The notes beneath the pieces are model-generated. The model had not been told where the DNA came from. It made no database searches and was given only the letters and a program-made list of their open reading frames with translations. Made by a program: the position numbers and the translations under genes. From positions 10,576,706 to 10,640,705 of the forward strand of contig NC_088296.1 in NCBI RefSeq assembly GCF_032854445.1: 64,000 nt of DNA. Direction: 5' to 3'. Within the stretch, counting starts at the first letter, position 1. Each line of letters starts with the position of its first letter. Origin of the DNA: Liolophura sinensis. Lineage: Eukaryota; Mollusca; Polyplacophora; Chitonida; Chitonidae. Positions 8,517 through 49,689 of the stretch are shown one piece after another.

Positions 8517-17584
<9,068 letters not shown>

Positions 17585-20040: not shown

Positions 20041-20645
20041 GATGTGGTGCTAAGGACATGCCTTGTGATATAGATTTACAGCTTAAGCTTTGTTTTTGAG
20101 GAAAGACAACAGCCCACTCTAAATATTTGCGCTGAAGCTGCCCATTTCCCATATTTCGTCACATATATCTTTTCTTTTTAAGACACTAATTGTTCTGAAG
20201 CTGTCACTGTGATTAAATGGGTCAGTTCTTACGTTATGGAGTATATATATCTGTATTACAACCAAATTTGAATGGTGATACATCCGTTTGACAGTTTTCG
20301 TTAAGGCTATAATTCTTGCCTCAAAACTATGATACGCCTAAGACACGAATGAGACAAACTGAGAACAATAATTACAACAAAGAGATAGTTTTACTTTCAT
20401 TTTCTTTCACGGCCTAAGCATTTTTGTTTCAAAAGTTTTAAATATACAAATTTTACAGGTGAAAGATAGAATTTACAAAATCATACAAAACATACATAAT
20501 AACAAAAGTAAATCATTTACATACACATAGTGTTTGTTTTTATATTAAAATTCGTTGCATAAGTAATTAGAGAACTATCTTTGAAGAACGCCTTCACATT
20601 TAATATATATATATAGATTGGTCCGCGAAGATTCCATTGAGGTGG

Positions 20646-23600
20646 TCATAACTGCTCCGGGATTTTCAACTTCTCTTCTCCTAGAAAAATAAAAACAACA
20701 GATCAAGAACGTTAGTAACCTCAACTGATTTTTGCTGAGTAAGTTGTCTCCCCTTGGTACATTCATGGAAACACTGAGTAGCGCGCCATATAACTGGCAA
20801 GAAATGAAATCTGCTAACAGTTATTCCGGATTTTTTATCATTGCTTTTGAGGTAAGGTGAATGTATCAGTAATTAAATCTGATATGTTCAGACTTTACAC
20901 AGCTAATTAACAAAGATATTGTATTTTTACCAAGCACAGCAGCTAGGATTAAAGAAATGTATACTTCTGTATTAACGGCAAATGTCTGGGACGTACCTTC
21001 GCACGTCTGTGACGTCACGATTTCCTCTTGTGCAGGTCGCTCCCAGAAAGTCCTTACGTAATCGATTGCCAGGAAGTTGTTGATGACGTCATCTGAAGGC
21101 GACATCTGGTTAACTTTCGTTTTAAGTTCGAAATCAGACTGGAAGAGCTGAAGAGTTGGTTCCAGGAGCTTCAATTTCCGGCTGACCCCTGAGGTAAGGA
21201 CAAAAAGGAATTAGACATACTTTGCTTTTTTTCATCTGATGTCGTTATTCACATAAAAAAATAGTCAAAATTTGGACTTGGAAGAAGGTGGGTAGGAATT
21301 CCCTTAAGTTTTTTACCCTGCCTGGTGAAAATTAAAACATGTAAAATGAAATATAATTGATTCAAGTTTAAGTTTTCGTCACTTTTGCAGAAAATTGGAA
21401 GGAGATAAAGAGGACAAGAATTGTCTGAAGTAAGGTCTTACGTGGAATTTTGGGCACGGTGATCTGGAATGCTTCTTTGAGGAGAATGTTGACGGCTGTT
21501 TTATTTTGACCATTCAGAGCTTTGTCATCCTCCAAGATTTGACGGACCGTCACACAGGCTTCCCTCTTTTCACGGGTGAACTATAAAAGATGGCAGATTA
21601 AACAATTAAGAAAATGTATTGACTCAAATAACATATCGCTAACGATTGTTTTGAGGTTTATAAAGCGGAAAATTTTAAAGTTATTTGTGAAGCAGATACC
21701 ATATGAATTACGGTAGATATCGATAAACCTTTAATTTAAAGATAGAGGATGAAAACAGTACGGATTACTGACGTTTGATGGAGCTTTTTCATCCGCCATT
21801 GTCTGTAGTCCGATTCTTTTTAGCTGATCCTCTATTAGGTCGACGAAATCCTCAGCCTTGTCAGCGACGAAATCAAAAACTTCCTCGACAATCTCGCTCC
21901 TCTCCTCCAGAGCATCGTTAATAACTTGACTAATATCACTGCCAAAGGAAAACAAATTTGATCCCGAGAGATCATTGTTTATAAGACTAGTATTATGATA
22001 AATCAAGAGAAAGAAGCAGATTTACTGTGAGAAGAAACCAACTGCACAGGTAACATTATTGCTTTTTTTTTGAGAATATATACACATGGGTTGAAATATT
22101 GTTGTTAAAAAGGAATAAAATTAATATTTTTGTGGTGTTGTAATAGTCTTCTCAACTATCCCAGTTTATCTGTATCCTTTAACAACTACAAATTTAACTC
22201 GTGATTTATACTGTTATCAAGGACAGTTTATGTGGGAAACGGCGGTCATGTCTATAAAAACCGAGGAAACCCAACTGAGCTAGAAGGAAATGACTGGACT
22301 TCTGCACTGAGGTCAATAACGCCTGATATAAATGCACCCTTGACTCCGACAAACCACCAGACAAACCACACGACATACCACCAGACAAACCACACGACAT
22401 ACTACCAGACAAACCACACGACATACCACCAGACATACTAGCAGACAAACTACCAATCATACCAGAGAGAGAGGTTTATACCATGTCCGTGACCTTACCT
22501 CTGACATAAGGTTCTGTTGAGAACTGTGTTAATTTCGCTCAAATATTTTTCAATGGGATCCAAAGCAGTATTAATGTTGGTGATCTCAGCTGAAAATACA
22601 TAATCACCAAACTTTGAACATGTTGTAAAGAAACACATTTTATATTTGAGAGAATGCAACATTTGCGCAAACAATATGTGCAAATTATAGCACAAGAAAG
22701 TCCTATACACATAAAGGTAGGGCAAACAATAAATGTTTGCAAAGTTCCATCTAGATGAAATTATGCACAGCAGATTCATTCAGTACCGTGAAGCGTAAGA
22801 AAAAAAAAACGCCATACTTAGATAAACTTTTGTGTTTTGGAAAGACATTAAGTAATCAGACAGAAGGAAGAGTTGGCAAAACAATCAGTAATTAAAACTT
22901 ACCACTGGCTAATTTCAGGACAGTTTGCACTCCTTGGTTGTTTTTAGAGTTCTTCTCCACGAAGAAATCTTTCACTGATCGACAGGCATCGTCTGCGTTC
23001 TCCAGTTCGGATATTACCATATTTGGGAGAGAGTCCATTCCATAGGCGGCAGCTTCCATGTTACCAAGGAGATCAAATCTCGTCTTTCCACATTGTACCA
23101 TTGAGATTTCATTCGCCACTTGTGAGACATGTTGTTTGGCTGTTTTGTTAACAAGTGTAGGATCATAGTTAGCTTATCGCCACAAAGAGTTAATAATTAA
23201 AAACAGATTTATGAATAAACAATTAATAAATAAAAAATAATTAAGAATAAAGAATTAACTAGACGACATATACAAAACTGGGAGCATTTTTCTGTAACAT
23301 TGCAAACCTTCTTGTACGAAACATCCAATGAGCGTTCTTAGTCAATGGCTAAATCTTTGATTGCAAAACAACAGAACCGTCAGGAAATTTTAATATATTG
23401 TGAAAAACAGGCCACAATTTACGTTCTTTGCTTGCCTTACTTACTCATGGAAGCAGCGACTAAAACGTCAGCTAGATTCTTTGTGGTGTTGATGGCGTTT
23501 GAGCCGAGCGTTTTCATTGGCTCCTCCCATGAAAGTACAACTGCAGATCTGGTTTTATTTTGAATGGATGCAATCTATAATTTAGAAATGAATAATCCGC

Positions 23601-24654
23601 TTTTAATATGTTGATTGAAAATTTGAAACAATCAAGTGTAAATATTACGTCACTTATTGACGAAATAACTTCAAAATTCTGTGTGTAAATATAAAACTAG
23701 CAAACCAGAAAATATAAAAATTGCTTATACTGAATAACAATATTTTATTTCCTTACACTATGAGCACATCTTTTATTGAAAATGCATGACAGTTCACATG
23801 ACACGTATATGAAAGGGAGATAATTATGTCTTACCGATCGGGGCAGAAGTTTTAGACCGGATGTCAGAGGCACGAGAGTCGGCGCACCAATGGAACTAAC
23901 ACCTGGTATCATCAAAATTGTGTTGGCCATATCCTGCACAGCGGCACTTCGTTGATATAATTCTGTGAGATTTTGTGATATGTCGGAAATATTTGATAAG
24001 AACCTTGCCGCTCGGATAAATGGTTCTGTTAAATCCTGGTAACATTGGAGTGAGGCGGACACTTGAGTTTGGAGGTTGTTTAAAGACTCCAGAAATTTGT
24101 TGGTTGAATTAAAAGCTCCGACGCAGTCTGAAATGCGAAAAAAGATTTCTGTGAAAAAAAAAAACAGCGTCCCACGAGGCGATAAAACCAAGACCGTTGG
24201 ATTTCCAATCTTGTCGACGAGGATAAGTTTATACATACTGTAAGAAAATGCTATTTACATGTAGCAGGAAAGTTGTCTGGGGTAACACCCTACTGTCGAA
24301 AACAATTTGCCTGAACACTTTTGTGAGCTTACCAGTAAGATAGTACATAAAAAGGCTGAAATCATTTTCATGGGACAAAAACACATGTACAAAGTGGCCT
24401 CGGGAGTCAACACAGCGATTAATGTTTAGTCGAAGCATACGTAGATATAAATTTTTACAGGGCAGTTTCACCGTGGCACCTTTTAATTTCTCTACAGTTC
24501 CCTAACGTTAATGCTATCGCTTTAAACTTTTAACTATCACAATACGCTTGATAAATTTGGCTAATTTTGTCTTCGACTATGCTCGAGATTCCGACCTACC
24601 TGTTGTTGTAGACACAATCAGGAAGCAGGTCATGGCTGTGACGAACCTCTTCAT
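20646..24654 (-). CDS. Secreted helical glycoprotein of unknown family, array copy A, 445 aa
   Basis: Coding exons on the minus strand, 5' to 3': 24654-24600, 24127-23835, 23574-23445, 23139-22903, 22589-22499, 21938-21773, 21580-21442, 21188-20997, 20680-20646 (1338 nt). A noncoding exon about 25245-25140 and 5' UTR from 24679 precede them. Residues 1-18 (MKRFVTAMTCFLIVSTTT) form a signal peptide. The mature chain is predicted largely helical, with seven cysteines (20, 47, 176, 212, 267, 333, 433) and about eight N-x-S/T sequons. A hydrophobic Gly/Pro-containing segment spans 89-113. An REKR furin-type site at 327-330 would divide it into about 312- and 115-residue parts. I used the GTCAGT donor for exon 6 because it alone keeps the frame into exon 7; the join makes an N-F-T sequon. 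I do not recognise the family. The protein is presumably exported, role unknown. Confidence 0.82.
22345..22452. repeat. ~20-bp minisatellite, copy A intron 5
   Basis: ACCACCAGACAAACCACACG-type units, about five. Confidence 0.85.
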
Positions 24655-24794
24655 TATTGCGATGTATTGTTTCTTTTCTCTGAAACGACATCACAAAATA
24701 TGAATGCTTTATCCCATATTTACATCAGTTAGAGAACTGAAAATAGACAAACTTCAGCCATGGTGTTGAGGCAGAGAGGCGTACTTTGCCAATA

Positions 24795-24915
24795 TTTACG
24801 CATTTACATGAACGGTGAGAATAAAATCCTAACTGAGGAAAATTGACAAGAGGCCATATTTCACCGGTTACGTGTGACCAGTTTTCACACTGTCCGTTTT
24901 TTCCCTCCATGCCCT
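24795..24915 (+). mobile_element. Dispersed repeat S3 fragment, copy A 5' UTR intron
   Basis: TTTACGCATTTACATGAACG, ATCCTAACTGAGGAAAATTG, CATATTTCACCGGTTACGTG. Present at the same site in all four units, so it predates the amplification. Confidence 0.8.
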
Positions 24916-25140
24916 ATTAAGTATATTATATACATTTGCCTTTTAAATGTCAGTAGAGGACGAAATCTAGAATCAATGATGTTCTGAAGGTGGATATGTG
25001 ATTATATATATAAACCTAACTAAACACCCAAATACTAATAACTAATACCCAAATCATATATGATTGATACGCAAGTATTAGGATTTTCTAAGTGACAACA
25101 TATATGTAGCTATACAATGCAAATTTAAAAAAAACGTACC

Positions 25141-25279
25141 TTTGAATAAGGATAAGTGGAATGAGCGATGGAACTCTGACTCGTCTCCTAGAAGAACTTG
25201 ACGATCTCGTCTCTGCTCTTACACTCTGAACCAAAGAATTTGATATTAATGATTTTAGAATGTGTTAACTTATTATATA
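25141..25279 (-). promoter_or_regulatory. Copy A promoter and noncoding first exon
   Basis: Read on the minus strand, a TATATAATA box lies at 25279-25271. A noncoding exon beginning about 25245 ends in CAAAG|GTACGT at 25140. The 5' UTR intron of about 460 bp holds a dispersed repeat fragment. The TATA position predicts the start site but is not proof. Confidence 0.55.
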
Positions 25280-26144
25280 CCCATACTTGCCCGGCCCAAC
25301 CCCGCCTCGCCAAAGACTGGGTCAGCAATTCAAGATGTGACATTGTTTTTTCAGCCCCAGGAAATCTGTGGTAAATGGCTAGCGACTGATTCTAGTAATC
25401 ACTGAGCGTAACAGCTGTTTCAAAGTTAACGGAAAGAGTCATTGTATTGTCAGTAATTAGTGATTGATATGCAGGTGTTGTACACGTGACACACTGTGAT
25501 TGGTCTTTGGTTGAAATGAACGCATCGTTTCTCCTACACCTGACGCATAATATCTTAACGTCTGCTCTCAATCTGTTCCTTAAACTCCCTCCCCCCCGCC
25601 TCCCCTTCTTACCTTGCTCCCCAGTTCCCAGTTTGCTTTACACCAATCTCTACTTACACCAATCTCTACTTGTTTTTCATGAATAAAATGATATCGTAGC
25701 TCTCTAAGAACTACCATACTATGAGATGTACTATCGTTACAGGGGAGCATGCTCATATGTATACAATAAATCTAGGCATAATAATGTAAACGGATTTACT
25801 TTTACAGGAAAGGGAAATTGCATTCACTTTTCTTTCACCTGATAATTTTTACCGGAATGATCTTTGATACAGATCATCTGAGAATTCAGCCCTTCGAGAA
25901 CACAAATTTGGTAATTGTACACAACAAATGTAAACGGTAGATCGAGTAGTATTGTGTAAGCTATGTGACATGGTCTGTTATCTATCCTCCGTTTGTGTTC
26001 ACTTGTCTTTTATAGAGCTATCAGTCAAATTGTTCACACTCTCTGTGTAGCTTAGGTCAGGTCATAATTATTCATAAGTCAAATGGCACATTGGAAAAAG
26101 GGGCGGATCGTAATACATTTTAACTGAGAGTTCTACATTCTGAC

Positions 26145-26350
26145 AATATAAGCCATGTTTCTGACAGTGTAGATCACGTTTCTGACAATGCATAGGCCAT
26201 GTTTCTGACATTATAGGCCATGCCTCTGACATTGTAGGCCATGTTTATGACTGTGTAGGCCATGTTTATGACTGTGTAGGTTATGTTTAGGACAGTGTAT
26301 GCCATGTTTCTGACAATACAGGTTATATTTCTGACAGTGTTGGGGCATGT
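26145..26350 (+). repeat. Degenerate ~21-bp minisatellite, A/B spacer
   Basis: About nine units of GCCATGTTTCTGACATTGTA plus G. Confidence 0.9.
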
Positions 26351-27077
26351 TCAAAATGGTTTTCAAGTTTGGCTTGGCTATAACTCATCTTTAAAAAATA
26401 CAGTTTGTTTTGTTACCAGTAGCGAAATGGTCTCTAGACCCAGTGACTTTAGAGTTACACATTGGGAAATTGGGCAATAAAACAATACAGTCTGAGTAAA
26501 GAGAGACTAAAATGGGCAGATGATCTTCCGTGAATGTGTCGAAGTTGTTTTAACCACCAGGGATGGTGGCTTGGGAGTGGGGTGGAGGGGGGGGGGGGGG
26601 GGTGGTTATGGGTAATATGTAATAGATTACCTTTCACAAACATTATCAGTATGCTTTTTAAAAAAAAATATTCTTCATGTCTTGCGAAATAATAACAATC
26701 TTCTTTTAAAATCAAGCTTGTGCATTTCAAAATGAATGACTTGCAAGAATTGTTCTAAACTGCATTTTGTTTACTCTAATGTGGATGTCCAACACAACGA
26801 AGTGTAGAGCTTGCCGTGTTACGTGTCACTGACGAAGGGAATTTTGGTAGGCGCTGTGGGGGAATTTACAGATAACTAAATATAGGTGACATGTTAAGAG
26901 AATAAGAGTTGGCGTGTAGACAATATTATATGGTCATTAATTAATTACGCTATCCATCTATGGTGATATTCTGTCACGAGTGGTTTCCAGGATGAATTTT
27001 TGTATTAATCTGTGTTTTAGGCAGGTGTGTTCAAAACTTGTTTGCAAATATGATCTTTAATATTGTTTTGGATTTAA

Positions 27078-27482
27078 TTTTTCAAGAGAAAAGGGTATTC
27101 GAAAATATTTTTGTAAGATGGGTATTTGGGACCAACTTTTGGTATTCATCGTTGTTGCATAACAATGTTCTAAATAAGGATGTGATGCTTGTCTAATAAA
27201 TTTATTTGATTATAAATTTGTTGTTTATATCAAAACATAGGCATTTACCTAAATTATGATAATTATTTATGAACATATTAAAAAATTTAAATATGATCCA
27301 AATTGCGGTTTAATACATTTGTTTACTGAAAGGATTAAATTGTAGTGCAAAAATATTTTTAAAGCTGTGTTACATCATCATTTTATGACATTATTAAACA
27401 AAGACTATAAATACTAAACGGTGGTCCCAAATATCATCATACAAAAATTATTTTCAAGCGTCTTTTTCTCCTGAAGAAAAGT
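27078..27482. mobile_element. MITE-like element with ~55-bp imperfect terminal inverted repeats, A/B spacer
   Basis: Left end TTTTTCAAGAGAAAA, then GAAAATATTTTTGTAAGATG and TATTTGGGACCA. The complement of the right end gives CAGGAGAAAAAGACGC, then GAAAATAATTTTTGTATGATG and TATTTGGGACCACC. The interior has no ORF and is AT-rich. Fits a non-autonomous DNA transposon. Confidence 0.65.
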
Positions 27483-28122
27483 CAGAAAAAATATTGAAGT
27501 TCACATTAAGGAGTAACTTTCGCACTCTTTCATCTGATCTTTATTTCATGTTTATGTTTTCTCCACCTTTAAAGCGTTGCCCACGTACATCCAGAGTACA
27601 TGATATCTGCGATAAGACTGCTAAGTTCCCGTATTTTCTGTAAATATTTTTAATATTACACTGTATTGTATTACTGCTGTTACTGTGACCCTCATGCTAT
27701 GAGGTTTATATCTATATTACAGCCAAATCTGGATGGTGAATACCGCTGTCTGATATTTTTTATTAGGCTTCTAATGCTAGTCTAAAAATCGTGTGAAGGA
27801 CGTCGATTCAGCGTAAGACAAGGATAAAACTCACTGACAACAGCAAATACAACAAGGGCATAGTTTTCACTTTCATTTTCTTTCATGCTTTTAGCACTTT
27901 TATTACAGAAATTTTAAATGTACAAATTATTCAATTTAAAGATGTAGTTTACAAAGTCATGTCTTTAACATGCATAATAACAAAAGCAAATCATTTACAT
28001 ACACATTTTATTTTATTTTTATTAAAATCCATTGCATAAGTAACTAAAAAACTATCTTTGATGGATGGTTTCGCATTTAATATACACATATAAATTGGTC
28101 CGCGAAGATTCCATCAAGGCGG

Positions 28123-31100
28123 TCATAACTGTTCCGGATTTTCAACTTCTCTTCTCCTGAAAAAAAAGAACAACAAACAGATCAAGAACATTAGTAGCCT
28201 CAACTGATTTTTGCTAAGGAAGTTCTCTCCCTTTGGTGGCATTCATGGAACACTATGACTTAAAGCGCTATGGAACAGGCAAAAAAATGAAATCTGTGAC
28301 AGTCCGGATTTTTTTTGTCAATGCTCTTGAGGTGAGATGAATGTATGAATAATTAACTCTGATATGTGTAGATTTTACACAGCTAATTAACAAAGATAAT
28401 GTATTTTTAGCAAGCACAACAGCTAGAATTAAAGAATGCACGTTTTCTGCATTAACGGCAGATTTCTGTGACGTACCTTTCGCACATTTGTGACGTCACG
28501 ATTTCCTCTTGTGCGGGTCGCTCCCAGAATGTCCTTACGTAATCCATTGCCAGGAAGTGTTTGATGATGTCATCTGAAGGCGACATCTGGTTAACTTTCG
28601 TTTTCAGTTCGAAATCAGACTGGAAGAGCTGAAGAGTTGGCTCTAGGAGCTTCAATTTCCGACTGACTCCTGAAATAACGACAAAAAGGAGTTTGAAATA
28701 TTTTGTTTTTTTCATCCGAGATGTACGTTATTCACATAAAAAAATAGTCAAAATTTGGACTTGGAAGAAGGTGGTTAGGAACTCTCTTAAATTTTTAACA
28801 CGGCCTGGTGAAAATTAAAACATGTAAAATAAAATATACTTGATGCAAGTTTAGGCTTTCGTCGCTTTTGTAAACATTTGAAGGAGATAAAAAGCGGACA
28901 AGAATTGCCTGAAGTAAGGTCTTACGTGGAATTTTGGGCACGGTGATCTGGAATGCTTCTTTGAGGAGAATGTTTGCGACTGTTTTATTTTGACCATTCA
29001 GAGCTTTGTCATCCTCCAAGATTTGGCGGACCGTCACACAGGCTTCCCTCTTTTCACGGGTGGACTATAATAGATGGCAGATTAAACAATTAAGAAAATG
29101 TATTGACTCAAATAACATATCGCTAACGATTGTTTTGAGGTTTATAAAGCGGAAAATTTAAAAGTTATTTGTAAAGCAGAAACCATATGAATTACGGTAG
29201 ATGTCGATAAACCTTTAATTTAAAGATAGAGGATGAAAACAGTACGGATTACTGACGTTTGATGGAGCTTTTTCATCCGCCATTGTCTGTAGTCCGATTC
29301 TTTTTAGCTGATCCTCTATTAGGTCGACGAAATCCTCAGCCTTGTCAGCGACGAAATCAAAAACTTCCTCGACAATCTCGCTCCTCTCCTCCAGAGCATC
29401 GTTAATAACTTGACTAATATCACTGCCAAAGGAAAACAAATTTGATCCTGAGAGATCATTGTTTATAAGACTAGTATTATGATAAATCAAGAGAAAGAAG
29501 CAGATTTACTTTGAGAAGAAACCAACTGCACAGGTAACATTATTGCTTTTTTTTGAGAATATATACAAATGGGTTGAAATATTGTTGTTAAAAAGGAATA
29601 AAATTAATATTTTTGTGGTGTTGTAATAGTCTTCTCAACTATCCCAGTTTATCTGTATCCTTTAACAACTACTAATTTAACTCGTGATTTATACTGTTAT
29701 CAAGGACAGTTTATGTGGGAAACGGCGGTCAAGTCTATAAAAAGCAGAGGAAACCCCAACTGAGATAGAAGAAAATGACTGGACTTCTGCACTGAGGTCA
29801 ATAACGCCTGATATAAATGCACCATTGACTCACACAAACCACCAGACAAACCACATGACATACCACCAGACAAACCACCAGACATACCACCAGACATACT
29901 AGCACACAAACTACCAGACATGCCAGACAAAGAGGGTTCCTACAGAATCGGATCGAAACGAGAGACAATCCACCAGACAAACCACCAATCATACCAGACA
30001 GGGAGGTTTATACCATGTCCATGACCTTACCTCTGACATAAGGTTCTGTTGAGAACTGTGTTAATTTCGCTCAGATATTTTTCAATGGGATCCAAAGCAG
30101 TATTAATGTTGGTGATCTCAGCTGAAAATACATAATCACCAAACTTTGAACATGTTGTAAAGAAACACATTTTATATTTGAGAGAATGCAACATTTGCGC
30201 AAACAATATGTGCGAATTATAGCACAAGAAAGTCCTATACACATAAAGGTAGGGCAAACAATAAATGTTTGCAAAGTTCCATGTAGATCAAATTATGCAC
30301 AGCAGATTCATTCAGTACCGTGAAGCGTAAGAAAAAAAAAACGCCATACTTAGATAAACTTTTGTGTCCATGAAAGACATTAAGTAATCAGACAGAAGGA
30401 AGAGTTGGCAAAACAATCAGTAATTAAAACTTACCACTGGCTAATTTCAGGACAGTTTGCACTCCTTGGTTTATTTTAGAGTTCTTCTCCACGAAGAAAT
30501 CTTTCACTGATCGACAGGCATCGTCTGCGTTCTCCAGTTCGGATATTACCATATTTGGGAGAGAGTCCATTCCATAGGCGGCAGCTTCCATGTTACCAAG
30601 GAGATCAAATCTCGTCTTTCCACATTGTACCATTGAGATTTCATTCGCCACTTGTGAGACATGTTGTTTGGCTGTTTTGTTAACAAGTGTAGGATCATAG
30701 TTAGCTTATCGCCACAAAGAGTTAATAATTAAAAACAGATTTATGAATAAACAATTAATCAATAAAAAATAATTAAGAATAAAGAATTAACTAGACGACA
30801 TATACAAAACTGGGAGCATTTTTCTGTAACATTGCAAACCTTCTTGTACGAAACATCCAATGAGCGTTCTTAGTCAATGGCTAAATCTTTGATTGCAAAA
30901 CAACAGAACCGTCAGGAAATTTTAATATATTGTGAAAACAGGCCACAATTTACGTTCTTTGCTTGCCTTACTTACTCATGGAAGCAGCGACTAAAACGTC
31001 AGCTAGATTCTTTGTGGTGTTGATGGCGTTTGAGCTGAGCGTTTTCATTGGCTCCTCCCATGAAAGTACAACTGCAGATCTGGTTTTATTTTGAATGGAT

Positions 31101-32183
31101 GCAATCTATAATTTAGAAATGAATAATCCGCTTTTAATATGTTGATTGAAAATTTGAAACAATCAAGTGTAAATATTACGTCACTTATTGACGAAATAAC
31201 TTCAAAACTCTGTGTGTAAATATAAAACTAGCAAACCAGAAAATATAAAAATTGCTTATACTGAATAACAATATTTTATTTCCTTACACTATGAGCACAT
31301 CTTTTATTGAAAATGCATGACAGTTCACATGACACGTATATGAAAGGGAGATAATTATGTCTTACCGATCGGGGCAGAAGTTTTAGACCGGATGTCAGAG
31401 GCACGAGAGTCGGCGCACCAATGGAACTAACACCTGGTATCATCAAAATTGTGTTGGCCATATCCTGCACAGCGGCACTTCGTTGATATAATTCTGTGAG
31501 ATTTTGTGATATGTCGGAAATATTTGATAAGAACCTTGCCGCTCGGATAAATGGTTCTGTTAAATCCTGGTAACATTGGAGTGAGGCGGACACTTGAGTT
31601 TGGAGGTTGTTTAAAGACTCCAGAAATTTGTTGGTTGAATTAAAAGCTCCGACGCAGTCTGAAATGCGAAAAAAGATTTCTGTGAAAAAAAAACAGCGTC
31701 CCACGAGGCGATAAAACCAAGACCGTTGGATTTCCAATGTTGTCGACGAGGATAAGTTTATACATACTGTAAGAAAATGCTATTTACATGTACCAGGAAA
31801 GTTGTCTGGGGTAACACCCTACTGTCGAAAACAATTTGCCTGAACACTTTTGTGAGCTTACCAGTAAGATAGTACATAAAAAAGCTGAAATCATTTTCAT
31901 GGGACAAAAACTCATGTACAAAGTGGCCTCGGGAGTCAACACAGCGATTAATGTTTAGTCGAAGCATACGTAGATATAAATTTTTACAGGGCAGTTTCAC
32001 CGTGGCACCTTTTAATTTCTCTACAGTTCCCTAACGTTAATGCTATCGCTTTAAACTTTTAACTATCACAATACGCTTGATAAATTTGGCTAATTTTGTC
32101 TTCGACTATGCTCGAGATTCCGACCTACCTGTTGTTGTAGACACAATCAGGAAGCAGGTCATGGCTGTGACGAACCTCTTCAT
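28123..32183 (-). CDS. Secreted helical glycoprotein of unknown family, array copy B, 445 aa
   Basis: Exons: 32183-32129, 31658-31366, 31105-30976, 30671-30435, 30121-30031, 29422-29257, 29064-28926, 28669-28477, 28156-28123 (1338 nt). Noncoding first exon ends at 32671. Exons 1-6 are almost identical to copy A, whereas exons 7-9 resemble C and D. Exon 7 begins STREKR rather than FTREKR, yet the Asn-x-Thr sequon across the junction and the furin-type site are kept. Exon 8 has one extra base next to its donor (193 nt) and exon 9 lacks one base (34 nt). The two changes cancel, so the final residues PEQL and the same TGA are restored, with RRREVEN replacing GEEKLKI. The frame is open throughout, so this copy is probably functional. 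Confidence 0.82.
29825..30000. repeat. ~20-bp minisatellite, copy B intron 5
   Basis: ACCACCAGACAAACCACCAG-type units, interrupted by a unique segment (GGGTTCCTACAGAATCGG) absent from copy A. Confidence 0.85.
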
Positions 32184-35676: not shown

Positions 35677-38600
35677 TCATAACTGTTCCGGGATTTTCAA
35701 CTTCTCTTCTCCTGGAGAAAAAGAACAACAGATCAAGAACATTAGTAGCCTCAACTGATTTTTGCTGAGTAAGTTGTCTCCCTTTGGTGCATTCATGGAA
35801 ACACTATGACTAAAGTTATGGAGCAGGCAAAAAAATGAAAATCTGGTGACAGTCCGGATTTTTTTTGTCAATGCTCTTGATGTGAGATGAATGTATGAAT
35901 AATTAACTCTGATATGTTTAGATTTTACACAGCTAATTAACAAAGATAATGTATTTTTATCAAGCACAACAGCTAGAATTAAAGAATGTACGTTTCCGTA
36001 TTAACGGTGGATTTTTGTGACGTACCTTCGCACATTTGTGACGTCACGATTTCCTCTTGTGCAGGTCGCTCCCAGAATGTCCTTACGTAATCCATTGCCA
36101 GGAAGTTGTTGATGATGTCATCTGAAGGCGACATCTGGTTAACTTTGGTTTTCAGTTCGAAATCAGACTGGAAGAGCTGAAGAGTTGGCTCTAGGAGCTT
36201 CAATTTCCGACTGACTCCTGAAATAACGACAAAAAGGAGTTGGACACACTTTGTTTTTTTCATCCGAGGTGTACGTTATTCACATAAAAAAATTAGTCAA
36301 AATTTGGACTTGGAAGAAGGTGGGTAGGAACTCCCTTAAGTTTTTAACACGGCCTGTTGAAAATTAAAACATGTAAAATAAAATATACTTGATGCAAGTT
36401 TAGGCTTTCGTCGCTTTTGTAAACATTTGAAGGAGATAAAAAGCGGAGAAGAATTGCGTGAAGTAAGGTCTTACGTGGAATTTTGGGCACGGTGATCTGG
36501 AATGCTTCTTTGAGGAGAATGTTGACGGCTGTTTTATTTTGACCATTCAGAGCTTTGTCATCCTCCAAGATTTGACGGACCGTCACACAGGCTTCCCTCT
36601 TTTCACGGGTGAACTATAAAAGATGGCAGATTAAAGAATTAAGAAAATGTATTGACTCAAATAACATATCGCTAACGATTGTTTTGAGGTTTGTAAAGCG
36701 GAAAATTTAAAAGTTATTTGTAAAGCAGATACCATATGAATTATGGTAGATGTCGATAAACCTTTAATTTAAAGATGGAGGATGAAAACAGTACGGATTA
36801 CTGACGTTTGATGGAGCTTTTTCATCCGCCATTGTCTGTAGTCCGATTCTTTTTAGCTGATCCTCTATTAGGTCGACGAAATCCTCAGCCTTGTCAGCGA
36901 CGAAATCAAAAACTTCCTCGACAATCTCGCTCCTCTCCTCCAGAGCATCGTTAATAACTTGACTAATGTCACTGCCAAAGGAAAACAAATTTGATCCTGA
37001 GAGATCATTGTTTATAAGACTAGTATTATGATAAATCAAGAGATAGAAGCAGATTTACTTTGAGAAGAAACCAACTCCACAGGTAACATTATTGCTTTTT
37101 TTTGAGGATTTATACAAATGGGTTGAAATATTGTTGTTAAAAAGGAATAAAATTAATATTTTTGTGGTGTTGTAATAGTCTTCTCAACTATCCCAGTTTA
37201 TCTAATTAACTAATTTACTACTAACTACTAATTTAACTCGTGATTTATACTGTTATCAAGGACAGTTTATGTGGGAAACGGCGGTCAAGTCTATAAAAAG
37301 CAGAGGAAACCCAACTGAGCTAGAAGGCAGATTGGACTTCTGCACTGAGGTCAATAACGCCTGATATAAATGCACCATTCACTCAGACGCACCACCAGAC
37401 ATACCACCAGACATACCACCAGACAAACCACCAGACATACCACCAGACATACTAGCACACAAACTACCAGACATGCCAGACAAAGAGGGTTCCTACAGAA
37501 TCGGATCGAAACGAGAGAACTTCGACAATGTCTGCCATTGACCTAGAAAGGCCAGCCGAACAAACCACCAGACAAACCACCAATCATACCAGACAGGGAG
37601 GTTTATACCATGTCCATGACCTTACCTCTGACATAAGGTTCTGTTGAGAACTGTGTTAATTTCGCTCAGATATTTTTCAATGGGATCCAAAGCAGTATTA
37701 ATGTTGGTGATCTCAGCTGAAAATACATAATCACAAAACTTTGAACATGTTGTAAAGAAACACATTTTATATTTGAGAGATTGCAACATTTGCGCAAACA
37801 ATATGTGCAAATTATAGCACAAGAAAGTCTTATACACATAAAGGTAGGACAAACAATAAATGTTTGCAAAGTTCCATCTAGATGAAATTATGCACAGCAG
37901 ATTCATTCTGTACCGTGAAGCGTAAGAAAAAACCCGCCATACTTGGATATACTTTTGTGTCTATGAAAGACATTAAATAATCAGACAGAAGGAAGAGTTG
38001 GCAAAACAATCAGTAATTAAAACTTACCACTGGCTAATTTCAGAACAGTTTCCACTCCGTAGTTTATTTTAGAGTTCTTCTCCACGAAGAAATCTTTCAC
38101 TGATCGACAGGCATCGTCTGCGTTCTCCAGTTCGGATATTACCATATTTGGGAGAGAGTCCATTCCATAGGCGGCAGCTTCCACGTTACCAAGGAGATCA
38201 AATCTCGTCTTTCCACATTGTACCATTGAGATTTCATTCGCCACTTGTGAGACATGTTGTTTGGCTGTTTTGTTAACAGGTGTAAGATCATAGTTAGCTT
38301 ATCGCCACAAAGAGTTAATAATTAAAAACAGATTTAAGAAATAAACAACCAATAAGTAATTAAGAATAAAGAATTAACTAGACGACATATACAAAACTGT
38401 GACAGCCTGGGAGTAGGTTTCTGTAACATTGCAAACCTTCTTGTACGAAACATCCAATGAGCGTTCTTAGTCAATGGCTCAATCTTTGATTGCAAAACAA
38501 CAGAACCGTCAGGAAATTTTAATATATTGTGAAAAACAGGCCACAATTTACGTTCTTTGCTTGCCTTACTTACTCATGGAAACAGCGACTAAAACGTCAG

Positions 38601-39771
38601 CTAGATTCTTTGTGGTGTTGATGGCGTTTGAGCCGAGCTTTTTTATTGGCTCCTCCCATGAACGTACAACTGCAGATCTGGTTTTATTTTGAATAGATGC
38701 AATCTATAATTTAGAAATGAATAATCCGCTTTTAATATGTTGATTGAAAATTTGAAACAATCAAGTGTAAATATTACGTCACTTATTGAGGAAATAACTT
38801 CAAAACTATAATATAAAAATTGCTTATAATAAATAACAATATTGTATTTTCTTACACTATGAGCACATCTTATATTGAAACTGCGTGACAGTTCATATGA
38901 CACATATTTGAAAGGGAGATAATTATGTCTTACCGATCGGGGCAGAAATTTTAGACCGGATGTCAGAAGCACGAGAGTCGGCGCACCATTGGAACTAACA
39001 CCTGGTATCATCAAAATTGTGTTCGCCATATCCTGCACAGCGGCACTTCGTTGATATAAATCTGTGAGATTTTGTGATATGTCGGAAATATTTGATAAGA
39101 ACCTTGCCACTCCGATAAATGGTTGTGTTAATTCCTGGTAACATTGGAGTGAGACCGACACTTGAGTTTGGAGGTTGTTTAAAGACTCCAGAAATTTGTT
39201 GGTTGAATTAAAAGCTCCGACGCAGTCTGGAATGCGAAAAACAAAAGAAAATTGAATAAAGATTTCTGTGGAAATAAAAAACAGCGTCCCACGAGGTGAT
39301 AAAACCAAGACCGTTGGATTTCCAATGTTGTCGACGAGGTTAAGTTTAGACGTATTGTAAGAAAATGCTATTTACATGTACCAGGAAAGTTGACTGGGGT
39401 AACACCCTACTGTCGAAAACAATTTGCCTGAACACTTTTGTGAGCATACCGGTAAGATAGTACATAAAAAAGCTGAAATGATTTTCATGGGACAAAAACA
39501 CATGTACAAAGTGGCCTCGGGAGTCAACACAGCGATTAATGTTTAGTCGAAGCATACGTAGATATAAATTATTACAGGGCAGTTTCACCGTGGCACCTTT
39601 TAATTTCTCTACAGTTCCAAAACGTTAATGCTATCGCTTTAAACTTTTAACTATCACAATACGCTTGATAAATTTGGCTAATTTTGTCTTCGACTATGCT
39701 CGAGATTCCGACCTACCTGTTGTTGTAGACACAATCAGGAAGCAGGTCATGGCTGTGACGAAACTCTTCAT
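35677..39771 (-). CDS. Secreted helical glycoprotein of unknown family, array copy C, 445 aa
   Basis: Exons: 39771-39717, 39226-38934, 38703-38574, 38264-38028, 37716-37626, 36971-36806, 36613-36475, 36217-36026, 35711-35677 (1338 nt, open). Noncoding first exon ends at 40261. The signal peptide starts MKSFVTAMT. Exon 2 differs from copy A by nine amino-acid replacements and two silent changes, for example QELTQPFIGVAR against QDLTEPFIRAAR. In this exon it groups with copy D. Exon 6 is nearly invariant. The FTREKR site, seven cysteines and C-terminal KIPEQL are kept. Confidence 0.82.
37383..37600. repeat. ~20-bp minisatellite, copy C intron 5
   Basis: Same units plus a longer unique insert (AACTTCGACAATGTCTGCC) shared only with copy D. 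Confidence 0.85.
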
Positions 39772-39912: not shown

Positions 39913-40030
39913 TTACGCATTTACATGAACAGTGAGAATAAAATCCTAACTGAGGAAAATTGACAAGAGGCCATATTTCACCGGTTACGTGTGACCAGTT
40001 TTCACACTGTCCGTTTTTTCCCTCCATGTT
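39913..40030 (+). mobile_element. Dispersed repeat S3 fragment, copy C 5' UTR intron
   Basis: Orthologous to the copy A fragment and nearly identical. Confidence 0.8.
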
Positions 40031-40260
40031 GTATTAAGTATATTATATACATTTGCCTTTTAAATGCCAGTAGAGGACGAAATCTAGAATCAATGATGTT
40101 CTGAAGGTGGATATGTGATTATACATATAAACCTGACTAAACACCCAAATACTAATAACTAATACCCAAATCATATATGATTGATACGCAAATATTAGGA
40201 TTTTCTAAAATGACAACATATATGTAGCTATACAATGCAAATGAAAAAAAAAAAACGTAC

Positions 40261-40400
40261 CTTTGAATAAGGATAAGTGGAATGAGCGATGGAACTCTGA
40301 CTCGTCTCCTAGAAGAACTTGACGATCTCGTCTCTGCTCTTACACTCTGAACCAAAGAATTTGATATTAATGATTTTAGAATGTGTTAACTTATTATATA
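40261..40400 (-). promoter_or_regulatory. Copy C promoter and noncoding first exon
   Basis: TATATAATA at 40400-40392 and a first exon ending at 40261 with the GTACGT donor, matching copies A and B. Confidence 0.55.
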
Positions 40401-41244
40401 CCCATACTTGCCCGGCCCAACCCCGCCTCGCCAAAGACTGGGTCAGCAATTCAAGATGTGACATTGTTTTTTCAGCCCCAGGAAATCTGTGGTAAATGGC
40501 TAGCGACTGATTCTAGTAATCACTGAGCGTAACAGCTGTTTCAAAGTTAACGGAAAGAGTCATTGTATTGTCAGTAATTAGTGATTGATATGCAGGTGTT
40601 GTACACGTGACACACTGTGATTGGTCTTTTGGTTGAAATGAACGCATCCTTTCTCCTACACCTGACGCATAATATCTTAACGTCTGCTCTCAATCTGTTC
40701 CTTAAACTCCCTCCCCCCGCCTCCCCTTCTTACCTTGCTCCCCAGTTCCCGGTTTGCTTTACACCAATCTCTACTTGAGTGTTGTTTTTCATGAATAAAA
40801 TGATATCGTAGCTCTCTGAGAGCTACCATACTATGAGATGTACTATCGTTACGGGGAAGCATGCTCATATGTATACAATAAATCTAGGCATAATAATGTA
40901 AACGGATTTACTTTCACAGGAAAGGGAAATTGCATTCACTTTTCTTTGATCTGATGATTTTTACCGGATTGATCTTTGATAGAGATAATCTGAGAGTTCA
41001 GCCCTTCGAAAACACGAATTTGGTAATTGTACACAACAAATGTAAAAGGTAGATCGAGTCGTATTGTGTAAGCTATGTGACATGATCTGTTATCTAAACT
41101 CCGTTTGTGTTCACTTGTCTTTTATAGAGCTATCAGTCAAATTGTTCACACTCTCTGTGTAGCTTAGGTCAGGTCATAATTATTCATAAGTCAAATGGCA
41201 CATTGGAAAAAGGGCGGATCGTAATATATTTTAACCGAGAGTTC

Positions 41245-41460
41245 TACATTCTGACAATATAAGCCATGTTTCTGACAGTGTAGATCATGTTTCTGACAAT
41301 GCATAGGCCATGTTTCTGACATTATAGGCCATGCCTCTGACATTGTAGGCCATGTTTCTGACATTGTAGGCCATGTTTATGACTGTGTAGGTTATGTTTA
41401 GGACAGTGTATGCCATGTTTCTGACAATACAGGTTATATTTCTGACAGTGTGGGGCATGT
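41245..41460 (+). repeat. Degenerate ~21-bp minisatellite, C/D spacer
   Basis: Same unit as 26145. Confidence 0.9.
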
Positions 41461-42156
41461 TCAAAATGGTTTCCAAGTTTGGCTATAACTCATCTTTAAA
41501 AAATACAGTTTGTTTTGTTACCAGTAGCGAAATGGTCTCTAGACCCAGTGACTTTAGAGTTACACATTGGGAAATTGGGCAATAAACAATACAGTGTGAG
41601 TAAAGAGAGACTAATATGGGCAGATGATCTTCCGTGAATGTGTGGAAGTTGTTTTAACCACCAGGGATGGGTGGCTGGGGCGTGGGGTGGGGTGGTGGTG
41701 CTTATGGGTAATATGTAATAGAATACCTTTCACAAACATTATCAGTATGCTTTTTTAAAAAAAATATTCTTCATGTCTTGCGAAATAATAACATTCTTCT
41801 TTTAAAATCAAGCTTGTGCATTTCAAAATGGTAACTTGCAAGAATTATTCTAACTGCATTTTGTTTACTCTAATGTGGATGTCCAACACAACGAAGTGTA
41901 GAGCTTGCCGTGTTACGAGTCACTGGCGAAGGGAATTTTGGTAGGCGCTGTGGGTGAATTTACAGATAACTAAATATAGGTGACATGTTAAGAGAGTAAG
42001 AGTTGGCGTGTAGACAATATTATATGTCATTAATTAATTACGCTTTCCATCTATGGTGATATTCTGTCACGAGTGGTTTCCAGGATGAATTTTTGTATTA
42101 ATCTGTGTTTTAGGCAGGTGTGTTCAAAACTTGATGATCTTTAATATTGTTTTGGA

Positions 42157-42565
42157 TTTATTTTTTCAAGAGAAAAGTGTATTTGAAAATATTTTTGGAA
42201 GATGGGTATTTGGGACCAACTTTTGGTATTCATCGTTGTTGCATAACAATGTTCTAAATAAGGATGTGATGCTTGTCTAATAAATTTATTTGATTATAAA
42301 TTTGTTGTTTATATCAAAACGTAGGTATTTAGCCTAAATTATGATAATATTTATGAACATATTAAAAATTTAAATATGATCCAAATTGCGGTTTAATACA
42401 TTTGTTTGCTGAAAGGATTAAATTGTAGTGCAAAAATATTTTTAAAGCTGTGTTACATCATCATTTCTGACATTATTAAACAAAGACTATAAATACCAAA
42501 AGGTGGTCCCAAATATCCATCATACAAAAATTATTTTCAAGCGTCTTTTTCTCCTTAAGGAAAAG
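42157..42565. mobile_element. MITE-like element, C/D spacer
   Basis: Orthologous to the elements at 27078 and 34618. Absent to the left of copy A. Confidence 0.65.
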
Positions 42566-43202
42566 TCAGAAAAAATATTGAAGTTCACATTGAGGAATAA
42601 CTTTTCGCACTCTTTCATCTGAACTTTATTTCATGTTTATGTTTTCTCCACCTTTAAAGCGTTGCCACGTACATCCAGAGTACATGATATCTGCGATAAG
42701 ACTGCTAAGTTCCCGTATTTTCTGCAAATATTTTTAATGTTACACTGTATTGTATTACTGCTGTCACTGTGACCCTTATGCTATGAGGTTTATATCTATA
42801 TTACAGCCAAATCTGGATGGTGATACCACTGTCTGATATTTTTATTAGGCTTCTAATGCTAGTCTAAAAATCGTGTGAAAGGCGTCGATTCAGCGTAAGA
42901 CAAGGATAAAACTCACTGACAACAGCAAATACAATAAGGGCATAGTTTCACTTTCATTTTCTTTCATGCTTTTAGCACTTTTATTACAGAAATTTTAAAT
43001 GTACAAATTATTCAACTTTAAGATGTAGTTTACAAAGTCATGTCTTAACATGCATAATAACAAAAGTAAATCATTTACATACACATTTTATTTCATTTTT
43101 ATTAAAATCCATTGCATAAGTAACTAAAAAACTATCTTTGATGGATGGTTTCGCATTTAATATACACATATAAATTGGTCCGCGAAGATTCCATCAAGGC
43201 GG

Positions 43203-46200
43203 TCATAACTGTTCCGGGATTTTCAACTTCTCTTCTCCTGGAAAAAAAGAACAACAAACAGATCAAGAACATTAGTAGCCTCAACTGATTTTTGCTAAGG
43301 AAGTTCTCTCCCTTTGGTGCATTCATGGAAACACTATGACTAAAGCGCTATGGAACAGGCAAAAAAATGAAATCTGGTGACAGTCCGGATTTTTTTTGTC
43401 AGTGCTCTTGAGGTGAGATGAATGTATGAATAATTAACTCTGATATGTTTAGATTTTACACAGCTAATTAACAAAGATAATGTATTTTTATCAAGCACAA
43501 AAGCTAGAATTAAAGAATGTACGTTTCTGCATTAATGGCAGATTTCTGTGACGTACCTTCGCACATTTGTGACGTCACGATTTCCTCTTGTGCGGGTCGC
43601 TCCCAGAATGTCCTTACGTAATCCATTGCCAGGAAGTTGTTGATGATGTCATCTGAAGGCGACATCTGGTTAACTTTGGTTTTCAGTTCGAAATCAGACT
43701 GGAAGAGCTGAAGAGTTGGCTCTAGGAGCTTCAATTTCCGACTGACTCCTGGAATAACGACAAAAAGGAGTTTGACATATTTTGTTTTTTTCATCCGAGG
43801 TATACGTTATTCACATTAAAAAATTAGTCAAAATTTGGACTTGGAAGAAGGTGGGTAGGAACTCCCTTAAGGTTTTAACACGGCCTGGTGAAAATTAAAA
43901 CATGTAAAATAAAATATACTTGATGCAAGTTTAGGCTTTCGTCGCTTTTGTAAACATTTGAAGGAGATAAAAAGCGGAGAAGAATTGCCTGAAGTAAGGT
44001 CTTACGTGGAATTTTGGGCACGGTGATCTGGAATGCTTCTTTGAGGAGAATGTTGACGGCTGTTTTATTTTGACCATTCAGAGCTTTGTCATCCTCCAAG
44101 ATTTGGCGGACCGTCACACAGGCTTCCCTCTTTTCACGGGTGGACTATAATAGATCGCAGATTAAAGAATTAAGAAAATGTATTGACTCAAATAACATAT
44201 CGCTAACGATTGTTTTGAGGTTTGTAAAGCGGAAAATTTAAAAGTTATTTGTAAAGCAGATACTATATGAATTACGGTAGATGTCGGTAAACCTTTAATT
44301 TAAAGATAGAGGATGAAAACAGTACGGATTACTGACGTTTGATGGAGCTTTTTCATCCGCCATTGTCTTGTAGTCCGATTCTTTTTAGCTGATCCTCTAT
44401 TAGGTCGACGAAATCCTCAGCCTTGTCAGCGACGAAATCAAAAACTTCCTCGACAATCTCGCTCCTGTCCTCCAGAGCATCGTTAATAACTTGACTAATA
44501 TCACTGCCAAAGGAAAACAAATTTGATCCCGAGAGATCATTGTTTATTAGACTAGTATTATGATAAATCAACGGAAAGAAGAAGATTTACTTTGAAAAGA
44601 AACCAACTGCACAGGTAACATTATTGCTTTTTTTTGAGGATTTATACAAATGGGTTGAAATATTGTTGTTAAAAAGGAATAAAATTAATATTTTTGTGGT
44701 GTTGTAATAGTCTTCTCAACTATCCCAGTTTATCTGTATCCTTTAACAACTACTAATTTAACTCGTGATTTATACTGTTATCAAGGACAGTTTATGTGGG
44801 AAACGGCGGTCAAGTCTATAAAAAGCAGAGGAAACCCAACTGAGCTAGAAGGTAGACTGGACTTCTGCACTGAGGTCAATAACGCCTGATATAAATGCAC
44901 CATTGACTCAGACAAATCACCAGGACAAACCACCAGACATACCACCAGACAAACCACCAGACATACCACCAGACATACCACCAGACATACTAGCACACAA
45001 ACTACCAGACATGCCAGACAAAGAGGGTTCCTACAGAATCGGATCGAAACGAGAGAACTTCGACAATGTCTGCCATTGACCCAGAAAGGCCAGCCGAACA
45101 AACCACCAGACAAACCACCAATCATACCAGACAGGGAGGTTTATACCATGTCCTTGACCTTACCTCTGACATAAGGTTCTGTTGAGAACTGTGTTAATTT
45201 CGCTCAGATATTTTTCAATGGGATCCAAAGCAGTATTAATGTTGGTGATCTCAGCTGAAAATACATAATCACCAAACTTTGAATATGTTGTAAACGTGTT
45301 ATATTTGTACATACGACTGAGAGAATGCAACATTTGCGCAAACAATATGTGCAAATTATAGCACAAGAAAGTCCTATACACATTAAGTAGGGCAAACAAT
45401 AATGTTTGCAAAGTTTCCATCTAGATCAAATTTTGCACAGCAGATTCATTCTGTACCGTGAAGCGTAAGAAAAAAAAACCGCCATACTTGGATATAATTT
45501 GTGTCTATAAAAGACATTAAATACTCCTACAGAAGGAAGAGTTGAAAAGAACAGTCAGTAATTAAAACTTACCACTGGCTAATTTCAGGACAGTTTGCAC
45601 TCCTTGGTTTATTTTAGAGTTCTTCTCCACGAAGAAATCTTTCACTGAACGACAGGCATCGTCTGCGTTCTCCAGTTCGGATATTACCACATTTGGGAGA
45701 GAGTCCATTCCATAGGCGCCAGCTTCCATGTTACCAAGGAGATCAAATCTCGTCTTTCCACATTGTACCATTGAGATTTCATTCGCCACTTGCGAGACAT
45801 GTTGTTTGGCTGTTTTGTTAACAGGTGTAAGATCATAGTTAGCTTATCGCCACAAAGAGTTAATAATTAAACACAGATTTAAGAAATAAACAATAAATAA
45901 TAATTAAGAATAAAGAATTAACTGGACAACATATACAAAACTTAGCCATTAGTCAATGGCTCAAAATTTGATTGAAAAACAACATAACCGTTGGGATATT
46001 GTGAAAATATATTGTGAAAAAACAGACCACAATTTACGTTCTTTGCTTGCCTTACTTACTCATGGAAGCAGCGACTAAAACGTCAGCTAGATTCTTTGTG
46101 TGTTGATGGCGTTTGAGCCGAGCGTTTTCATTGGCTCCTCCCATAAAAGTACAACTGCAGATCTGGTTTTATTTTGAATGGATGCAATCTATAATTTAGA

Positions 46201-47270
46201 AATGCATAATCCGCTTTTATTATGTTGATTGAAAATTTGAAACAATCAAGTGTAAATATTACGTCACTTATTGACGAAATAACTTCAAAACTCTGTGTGT
46301 AAATATAAAACTAGCAAACCAGAAAATATAAAAATTGCTTATAATGAATAACAATATTTTTTTCCTTACACTATGAGCACATCTTTTATTGAAACTGCGT
46401 GGCAGTTCATATGTCACATATATGAAAGTGAGATAATTATGTCTTACCGATCGGGAAAGAAGTTTTAGACCGGATGTCAGAGGCACGAGAGTCGGCGCAC
46501 CAATGGAACTCACACCTGGTATCATCAAAATTGTGTTCGCCATATCCTGCACAGCGGCACTTCGTTGATATAAATCTGTGAGATTTTGTGATATGTCGGA
46601 AATATTTGATAAGAACCTTGCCACTCCGATAAATGGTTCTGTTAACTCCTGGTAACAATGGAGTGAGGCCGACACTTGAGTTTGGAGGTTGTTTAAAGAC
46701 TCCAGAAATTTGTTGGTTGAATTAAAAGCTCCGACGCAGTCTGGAATGCGAAAAACAAAAGAAAATTAAATAAAGATTTCTAAGAAAAAAAAAAAAAACA
46801 GCATCCCACAAGGCGATAAAACGAAGACCGTTGGATTTCCAATCTTGTCGACGAAGATAAGTTTATACGTACTGTAAGAAAATGCTATTTACATGTACCA
46901 GGAAAGTTGTCTGGGGTAACACCCTATTGTCGAAAACAATTTGCCTGAACACTTTTGTGAGCATACCGGTAAGATAATACATAAAAAAATCTGAAATCAT
47001 TTTCATGGGACAAAAACACATGTACAAAGTGGCCTCACGAATCAAAAAACAGGGATTGATGGTTTGGTCGAATCGTACGTAGATATAAATTGTGATAGGG
47101 CAGTTTCACTGTGACACCTTTTAATTTCTCTACAGCTTTAAACTTCTAACTATTATAATACGCTTGATAAATTTGGTTAACTTTGTGTTCCACCCTGTTC
47201 CAGATTTCGACGTACCTGTTGTTGTAGACACAATCAGCAAATAGGCCACGGCTGTGACGAACCTCTTCAT
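43203..47270 (-). pseudogene. Array copy D, frameshifted member of the same secreted family
   Basis: All nine exon positions are present: 47270-47216, 46740-46448, 46188-46060, 45809-45573, 45254-45164, 44503-44337, 44144-44006, 43748-43557, 43237-43203, with intact splice sites. Exon 3 lacks one base near 46100 (129 nt instead of 130), which brings a TAG into frame at 46089-46087. Exon 6 has one extra base near 44368 (167 nt instead of 166), which would cause a second early stop. The remaining product would be a secreted fragment of roughly 150 residues. The first exon and promoter differ from those of copies A-C. Two separate single-base indels could be assembly errors, but together they favour a decayed gene. 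The signal peptide (MKRFVTAVAYLLIVSTTT) is intact. Confidence 0.72.
44905..45135. repeat. ~20-bp minisatellite, copy D intron 5
   Basis: Same units and insert as copy C. Confidence 0.85.
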
Positions 47271-47407
47271 TATTGCGATGTATTGTTTCTTCTCTCTGAA
47301 ATAACTGCACAAAATATAAATGTTTTATCCCACATTTACATCAGTTAGAAAACTAAAAAAAAAGACAAACTTCAGCCATGATGTTGAGGCAGAGAGGCGT
47401 AATTTGC

Positions 47408-47530
47408 TAATATTTATGCATTCACGTGAACGGTGAGAATAAAATCCTATTTGATGAAAGAGGCCGTATTTCACCGGTTACGTGTGACCATTTACAGTTA
47501 TCACACTGTCCCGTTTTTTTCCTCCATGCT
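47408..47530 (+). mobile_element. Dispersed repeat S3 fragment, copy D 5' UTR intron
   Basis: Same site as in A-C but more diverged: part of the CTAACTGAGG block is replaced or lost, while CGTATTTCACCGGTTACGTG is kept. Confidence 0.75.
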
Positions 47531-47817
47531 GTATTAAGTATATTATATACATTTGCCCCTTAAATGCCACTAGAGGACGAAGTCTAAATTCAATGATGTT
47601 CTGAAGGTGGATATAGAATAATTTGGATATATAGTCACGCTTATACACACACAAACATGAATAATTCTATCATTGAAAGTTAGGAGATATTCCGATTACC
47701 TAAAATTATAGCAAATTGTTACTATTTAAACAAGTGTACAAGTCCGTCTTTGATATTTCAGTGATTGCTAAAATGGTAGCATATTTATAAAACCTAAATG
47801 CAAAAACAACAACATAC

Positions 47818-47962
47818 CTTTATATAAAGGAAGGTAAGCAGTATACTCCGACTGGTCACTGAGAGTCCTGTTGTCTGTTCTCAGTGAGTGAAGAAAGGAA
47901 TTCAATGTGAGGCGATTTGGAATTTCCTCGCGGGTTATATATATATATATATATATATATGC
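47818..47962 (-). promoter_or_regulatory. Copy D first exon and (AT)n TATA region
   Basis: The minus strand shows a run of about 12 AT units at 47960-47937 where copies A-C have a single TATA box. A diverged first exon follows, ending in TATAAAG|GTATGT at 47818. Exact start unknown. Confidence 0.45.
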
Positions 47963-49685: not shown

Positions 49686-49689
49686 AATG

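Follow-up and report, generated by a model that had tools for sequence, protein, structure and literature searches.

What is encoded by a run of four repeated genes in the genome of the chiton Liolophura sinensis, and how did the run come to hold four copies? The stretch analysed here (the window) comprises 64,000 nucleotides of contig NC_088296.1 (assembly GCF_032854445.1, positions 10,576,706 to 10,640,705, forward strand), and coordinates without a scaffold name refer to it. From ~20.3 to 47.6 kb it carries four direct repeats of ~7.5 kb each, arranged head to tail with their genes on the minus strand and called units 1 to 4. The repeats are spaced 7484, 7549 and 7531 nt apart along the array, and BLAST comparison between units gives pieces at 88-96% identity; the homology of unit 4 to the other units stops at 47614. 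This is the layout of four head-to-tail units on one strand that had been proposed in a first-pass annotation made from the letters alone, and chance repeats were rejected as its explanation, since the regular spacing together with such identity is far beyond chance. The array belongs to a dispersed family of probably secreted proteins, and it looks as if it has grown by unequal crossing-over between an older pair of genes. Family, gene structure and array history, taken together, are held with high confidence.

Each unit contains nine coding exons (Table 1), and all eight coding introns have GT-AG boundaries in all four units. The 445-residue protein that had been assigned to the four units is encoded by an open frame in units 1, 2 and 3. 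In unit 4, a -1 change in exon 3 and a +1 change in exon 6, with stops in between, break the frame from exon 3 to exon 6, and this unit is broken or misassembled as it stands in the assembly. The intron phases 1,0,1,1,2,0,1,1, described as consistent in the annotation, are exact in units 1 and 3. In unit 2, compensating +1/-1 changes in exons 8 and 9 alter the last residues and turn the phase of the last intron from 1 to 2, and in unit 4 the phases are shifted by its own indels. That units 1 and 3 share these phases with a relative of 46-47% identity on scaffold C2 argues that these are real coding exons. A spliced aligner given the unit 1 protein returned the same unit 1 exons, which is a self test and not independent support. 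With shared phases and GT-AG introns, the array has the coding exons of real genes, as had been argued, but four expressed genes are not supported, unit 4 being in the state just described. The conserved TATA box and noncoding first exon also hold for three units only. The TATATAATA of unit 1 recurs identically in unit 2 (32810-32802) and unit 3 (40400-40392), and over two promoter windows units 1-3 differ from one another by 0-2.6%, but unit 4 differs from them by 39-41%, and its 'TATA' sits within a (TA)n run (47936-47960).

Over the six pairs of units, mismatch amounts to 1.8-2.9% in exons and 4.6-9.7% in introns, and the exon/intron ratio of 0.30-0.55 is read as constraint. The synonymous divergence (dS) between units 1-3 is 0.03-0.05 by the NG86 method, in line with the recent amplification that had been suggested. 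The ratio of nonsynonymous to synonymous divergence (dN/dS) is 0.26 for units 1 and 2, 0.41 for units 1 and 3 and 0.78 for units 2 and 3, where comparisons involving unit 2 cover the first 1290 nt only. A role in reproduction or in the egg, with gene copies multiplied for dose, would account for the recent amplification and for nothing more specific, and it is improbable, as dN/dS is below 1 in the three pairs with no overall sign of positive selection. It is also very unlikely that the array as a whole is decaying, with unit 4 already a pseudogene and the others perhaps weakly constrained. Such decay would fit the two frame-breaking indels and the diverged promoter region of unit 4, the indels that alter the frame near the end of the unit 2 gene (exons 8 and 9), the dN/dS of 0.78 and the degraded state of a relative on scaffold C3, which has a stop in exon 3. 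However, three frames are still open, and in unit 4 conservation is still higher in the exons than in the introns (against unit 2, 4/237 mismatches in exon 4 and 39/311 in intron 4), so that any break of the frame is recent or else an assembly error.

The history of the array is recorded at the sites where units 1 and 4 differ. Units 2 and 3 have unit-1-type sequence upstream and unit-4-type sequence downstream, and the best single breakpoint is identical in both. Upstream of it, 339 of 359 informative sites in unit 2 are of the unit-1 type (20 of the unit-4 type), as are 314 of 352 in unit 3 (38 of the unit-4 type); downstream, 199 of 227 sites in each are of the unit-4 type and 28 of the unit-1 type. 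A further 7 sites in unit 2 and 12 in unit 3 are of neither type. Unequal crossing-over gives a pattern of this kind. An ancestral tandem pair, with a unit-4-type copy upstream and a unit-1-type copy downstream, would have given rise to inner copies that are hybrids, of the unit-1 type in their 5' part and of the unit-4 type in their 3' part, the outer ends remaining old. Because the breakpoint is common to units 2 and 3, a single hybrid probably arose and was then copied. At the 3' end, unit 1 differs by 17-20% from the other units. Over much of the 5' part unit 2 resembles unit 1 more closely than it does unit 3, and unit 3 has unit-4-type patches from intron 1 to exon 5; both features make later exchange or gene conversion within the array likely.

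The array is not the whole family, as 'four-copy' had implied. Whole-genome searches with three family members (one of them, C13a, represented by its first 272 residues) over 609,464,459 bases in 632 contigs located it at at least 12 places on four scaffolds: the four units, the C2 relative, the C3 copy, five places matching exon 2 on C13 and one on C8. Twelve is a lower bound because only the best candidates were scored. The C2 relative, a paralogue ~0.5 Mb from the array, has eight open coding exons and a tentatively placed ninth. It shares with the array the same eight phases, six cysteines in register, a furin-like RQKR and a hydrophobic segment, but differs in having no sequons, another signal peptide, one extra mature cysteine and the opposite strand, and the family searches found no tandem partner for it there. 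The C3 copy, although degraded, retains R-X-[KR]-R before the fifth cysteine. The five C13 places form a tandem cluster, one of them with a stop inside the matched stretch. Its members have six cysteines (five in the incomplete C13e; four are column-exact with the array), RTRR or RSRR before the fifth and a hydrophobic segment, and the phases of C13a match from exon 2 to exon 7 only. On the other hand, they are only 14-18% identical to unit 1, have a long exon 6 with histidine-containing 11-residue repeats and a second basic site in exon 4, and carry 0-1 sequons. Despite the low identity, the C13 cluster is homologous to the array by profile comparison: hhalign aligns the two branches, represented by three sequences each, over 348 columns with 98.3% probability and an E value of 1.4e-14. 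Between exons 2 and 3 of C13e (G000:C13:11422287-11423537), a piece resembling the 3' part of exon 2 occurs about a dozen times at ~100-bp steps.

Three alignments were used. A1 contains seven proteins (units 1 and 3, the C2 relative, C13a, C13b, C13d and C13e), A2 contains units 1 and 3 with the C2 relative, and A3 contains C13a, C13b and C13d out of the five C13 places. A1 leaves out the degraded C3 copy, the incomplete C8 and C13c, unit 2 because it nearly duplicates unit 1, and unit 4 because of its broken frame. Only partial gene models were obtained for C3, C8 and C13c-e, and small exons that the aligner placed at their ends or across gaps cannot be trusted. Bits of this kind persist in the proteins used: residues 1 to ~19 of the C2 relative in A1 (later replaced), the exon-6 ends of C13a, C13b, C13d and C13e, and a short join close to the 3' end of C13d.

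The signal peptide noted in the first-pass annotation agrees with the hydropathy of unit 1, whose N-terminus is hydrophobic and signal-peptide-like; so is that of the C2 relative, and C3 has a candidate. A search for signal exons in the C13 and C8 copies found none that was convincing. By comparison with the C2 relative (MTITHRLAAFAALLLLIENAHG, then F), the cut would lie near VGA-23, before F24. This would place C20 in the signal peptide, so that six mature cysteines are likely instead of the seven counted at first; the C2 relative has no cysteine at the corresponding place. The six (C47, C176, C212, C267, C333 and C433) all lie in invariant columns of A2, and C13e, whose 3' end is incomplete, has five cysteines. 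Just before the fifth, R-X-[KR]-R is found in all seven proteins of A1. The equivalent of residues 89-107 is the most hydrophobic stretch in eight of eight sequences (N-termini excluded in three, C8 judged by exon 2 only), and its central proline is kept across the family. Eight sequons are present in each of units 1-3, as had been estimated; there are none in the C2 relative, C13a, C13b and C13d and one in C13e. Among the proteins counted, sequons in numbers are found only in the array's branch, and 'glycoprotein family' is not supported as a description.

The protein of unit 1 has a helical amphipathicity 5.4 standard deviations over shuffles, and exon 6 is amphipathic with a best period of 3.64-3.67 in five of five sequences, near that of an 11/3 helix. 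In three C13 copies exon 6 is longer and has 14-19 histidines. Identity at lag 11 is 0.46 in C13a and 0.42 in C13e, a clear 11-residue repetition, and weaker in C13d (0.25); exon 6 of C13a (G000:C13:11383436-11383842) consists largely of amphipathic 11-residue repeats with 18 histidines in 115 residues. A period near 11/3 and the 11-mers of C13a and C13e are reminiscent of lipid-binding amphipathic-helix proteins such as apolipoproteins, synucleins and perilipins, but by sequence the family is not related to any Pfam entry at a score above the cut-off.

No Pfam-A family was found above its curated cut-off for the seven A1 proteins (units 2 and 4, C3, C8 and C13c were not scanned), and no NCBIfam model for unit 1, so that the search with hidden Markov models proposed in the annotation agrees with its failure to recognise a domain. 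The nearest Pfam family is Senescence in C13b, at 21.3 bits against a cut-off of 24.6. Unit 1 has no match among PDB sequences at E up to 1. A profile of the seven proteins gives nine PDB matches at E up to 10, the best being a tail needle protein (E 2.7e-4), which are read as generic helical similarity. Neither the 22 pattern stretches from viral contigs nor the 126 from prokaryote genomes included a relative, and among literature titles and abstract openings none describes this chiton family, which does not show that no description exists. 'Undescribed' accordingly means unmatched in Pfam, NCBIfam, PDB and the viral and prokaryote collections searched, among which there was no eukaryote protein database. 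A viral envelope origin was rejected in view of the nine coding exons and the lack of a second strongly hydrophobic tail. The tooth matrix protein RTMP1, likewise from a chiton, is reported to have a predicted signal sequence and no known relatives, but it has Gly/Ser-rich repeats, W/F-rich regions and His-rich regions. The mature array protein contains 2.6% Gly and 0.2% His, and an RTMP1-like matrix protein was rejected on composition, compared by description and not by sequence.

A structural protein of matrix, mucus or cuticle, whose helices would associate outside the cell into bundles or fibres and whose copy number would raise output, could explain the helical pattern of unit 1, the PDB profile matches (mostly helical bundles and fibres), the amplification in this lineage and the eight sequons of the array branch. 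However, the exon-6 period of ~3.65 departs from the 3.5 of heptad coiled coils, and the conserved cysteines and the processing site suggest a compact processed protein; a structural role is thus unlikely, though it deserves a hearing. The favoured explanation is a helical protein that would bind lipid or membrane. After removal of the signal peptide the protein would be secreted, and three disulphides would form among the six mature cysteines. A furin-type protease would then cut after REKR, leaving two chains held by disulphides, of which an amphipathic helix and the hydrophobic segment may bind lipid or membrane, and the product would act as a soluble component of a body fluid or mucus. We infer every step after translation from the sequence, and the lipid or membrane mechanism itself is tentative, rather doubtful than probable. 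The statement as a whole, in which a dispersed secreted family with a history of unequal crossing-over encodes a furin-cleaved, lipid- or membrane-binding helical protein, is the preferred explanation, though at less than an even chance.

Several observations weigh against parts of this statement. Links between the two branches by single sequences are weak (best E 2.3e-4 in one search and 0.0012 in another, and 0.07 from C13a to the array). In A1, column-exact matches of cysteines between the array and C13 are limited to C47, C212, C267 and C333; C176 is paired across the branches only in hhalign, and for C433 there is only a counterpart near the other C-terminus. The incomplete C8 model reads PRGVRG at the site of R-X-[KR]-R. 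The signal peptide was judged by hydropathy and the furin site by motif. Means of the hydrophobic segment range from 1.36 to 1.91, and those of units 1 and 3 (1.49 and 1.36) and C13a (1.54) are under 1.6, the line usually drawn for such segments. The p values of exon 6 (0/2000 in four sequences, 0.037 in C2b) are too favourable because shuffles were scored at 8 angles and real sequences at 60. Amphipathic helices would fit soluble bundles too, as the PDB profile matches suggest. Finally, a simple crossover leaves 20+28 discordant sites in unit 2 and 38+28 in unit 3, to which gene conversion could contribute. A still bolder proposal, which is quite unlikely, is that the proteins form an undescribed family of chitons or molluscs, in which a protease would activate helical proteins of two disulphide-linked chains and these would insert into membranes as defence effectors or carriers, one branch having histidine-rich 11-residue repeats that may bind lipid or metal.

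Table 1. Positions of the array genes, selected elements and relatives (window coordinates unless a scaffold is named)
Feature	Location	Strand	Details
Unit 1 gene	20646..24654	-	Coding exons 24654-24600, 24127-23835, 23574-23445, 23139-22903, 22589-22499, 21938-21773, 21580-21442, 21188-20997, 20680-20646; open 445-residue frame
Unit 1 promoter and noncoding first exon	25140..25279	-	TATATAATA at 25279-25271; exon end 25140, exon start inferred
Unit 1 exon 2	23835..24127	-	First conserved cysteine C47; hydrophobic segment, residues 89-107, most hydrophobic stretch of the mature protein
Unit 1 exon 7	21442..21580	-	Furin-like REKR, residues 327-330, just before conserved C333
Best switch point, unit-1-type to unit-4-type, in units 2 and 3	22542..22619 (unit 1 coordinates)	-	End of intron 4 to exon 5; from sites where units 1 and 4 differ
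Unit 2 gene	28123..32183	-	Coding exons 32183-32129, 31658-31366, 31105-30976, 30671-30435, 30121-30031, 29422-29257, 29064-28926, 28669-28477, 28156-28123; open 445-residue frame, compensating +1/-1 in exons 8 and 9
Unit 3 gene	35677..39771	-	Coding exons 39771-39717, 39226-38934, 38703-38574, 38264-38028, 37716-37626, 36971-36806, 36613-36475, 36217-36026, 35711-35677; open 445-residue frame
Unit 4 gene copy	43203..47270	-	Exons 47270-47216, 46740-46448, 46188-46060, 45809-45573, 45254-45164, 44503-44337, 44144-44006, 43748-43557, 43237-43203; frame broken between exons 3 and 6
C2 relative (paralogue)	G000:C2:10074328-10082169	+	Eight coding exons open, ninth tentatively placed
C13 tandem cluster	G000:C13 ~11380078-11427369	+	Five exon-2 places, one with a stop inside the matched stretch

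Elsewhere in the window, an open frame at 61271-61996 (plus strand) contains the beginning of what is probably a membrane-anchored M1 aminopeptidase (Peptidase_M1_N, E 6.9e-15; best PDB matches ERAP1). A tandem array of a 37-bp unit (49682-50262; 15.6 copies, 95% matches) lies ~2 kb outside the gene array on its 5' side, and a lysine-rich open frame of 163 residues at 17093-17584 (plus strand), which has no Pfam match, is perhaps an exon of another gene. An Rfam scan of the window gave no matches, and scanning for tRNAs found no genes either in the window or in one mitochondrial stretch. In the same assembly, COX1 occurs seven times at ~15.5-kb steps on G000:C99 (108,685 bp), so that the mitochondrial genome appears to be strung together there in some seven copies, head to tail, probably as an artefact of assembly; a further copy lies on C632. 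Translated frames of the mitochondrial DNA give a gene order that fits the one regarded as ancestral for molluscs. A long (AT)n run beside cox3 (mitochondrial stretch L053, ~4350-4770) is seen as repeated MY frames on both strands.

Lineage-amplified orphan families of probably secreted proteins are a known kind of thing, and the history of growth is unusually clear in this one. The family now has an address in the chiton genome, gene models and defining features, and its array appears to offer a clear case of growth by unequal crossing-over. Chitons are studied for their armour and iron-capped teeth. Should the protein turn out to act on membranes, or to be abundant in mucus or a hard part, it would be a candidate effector or material protein.

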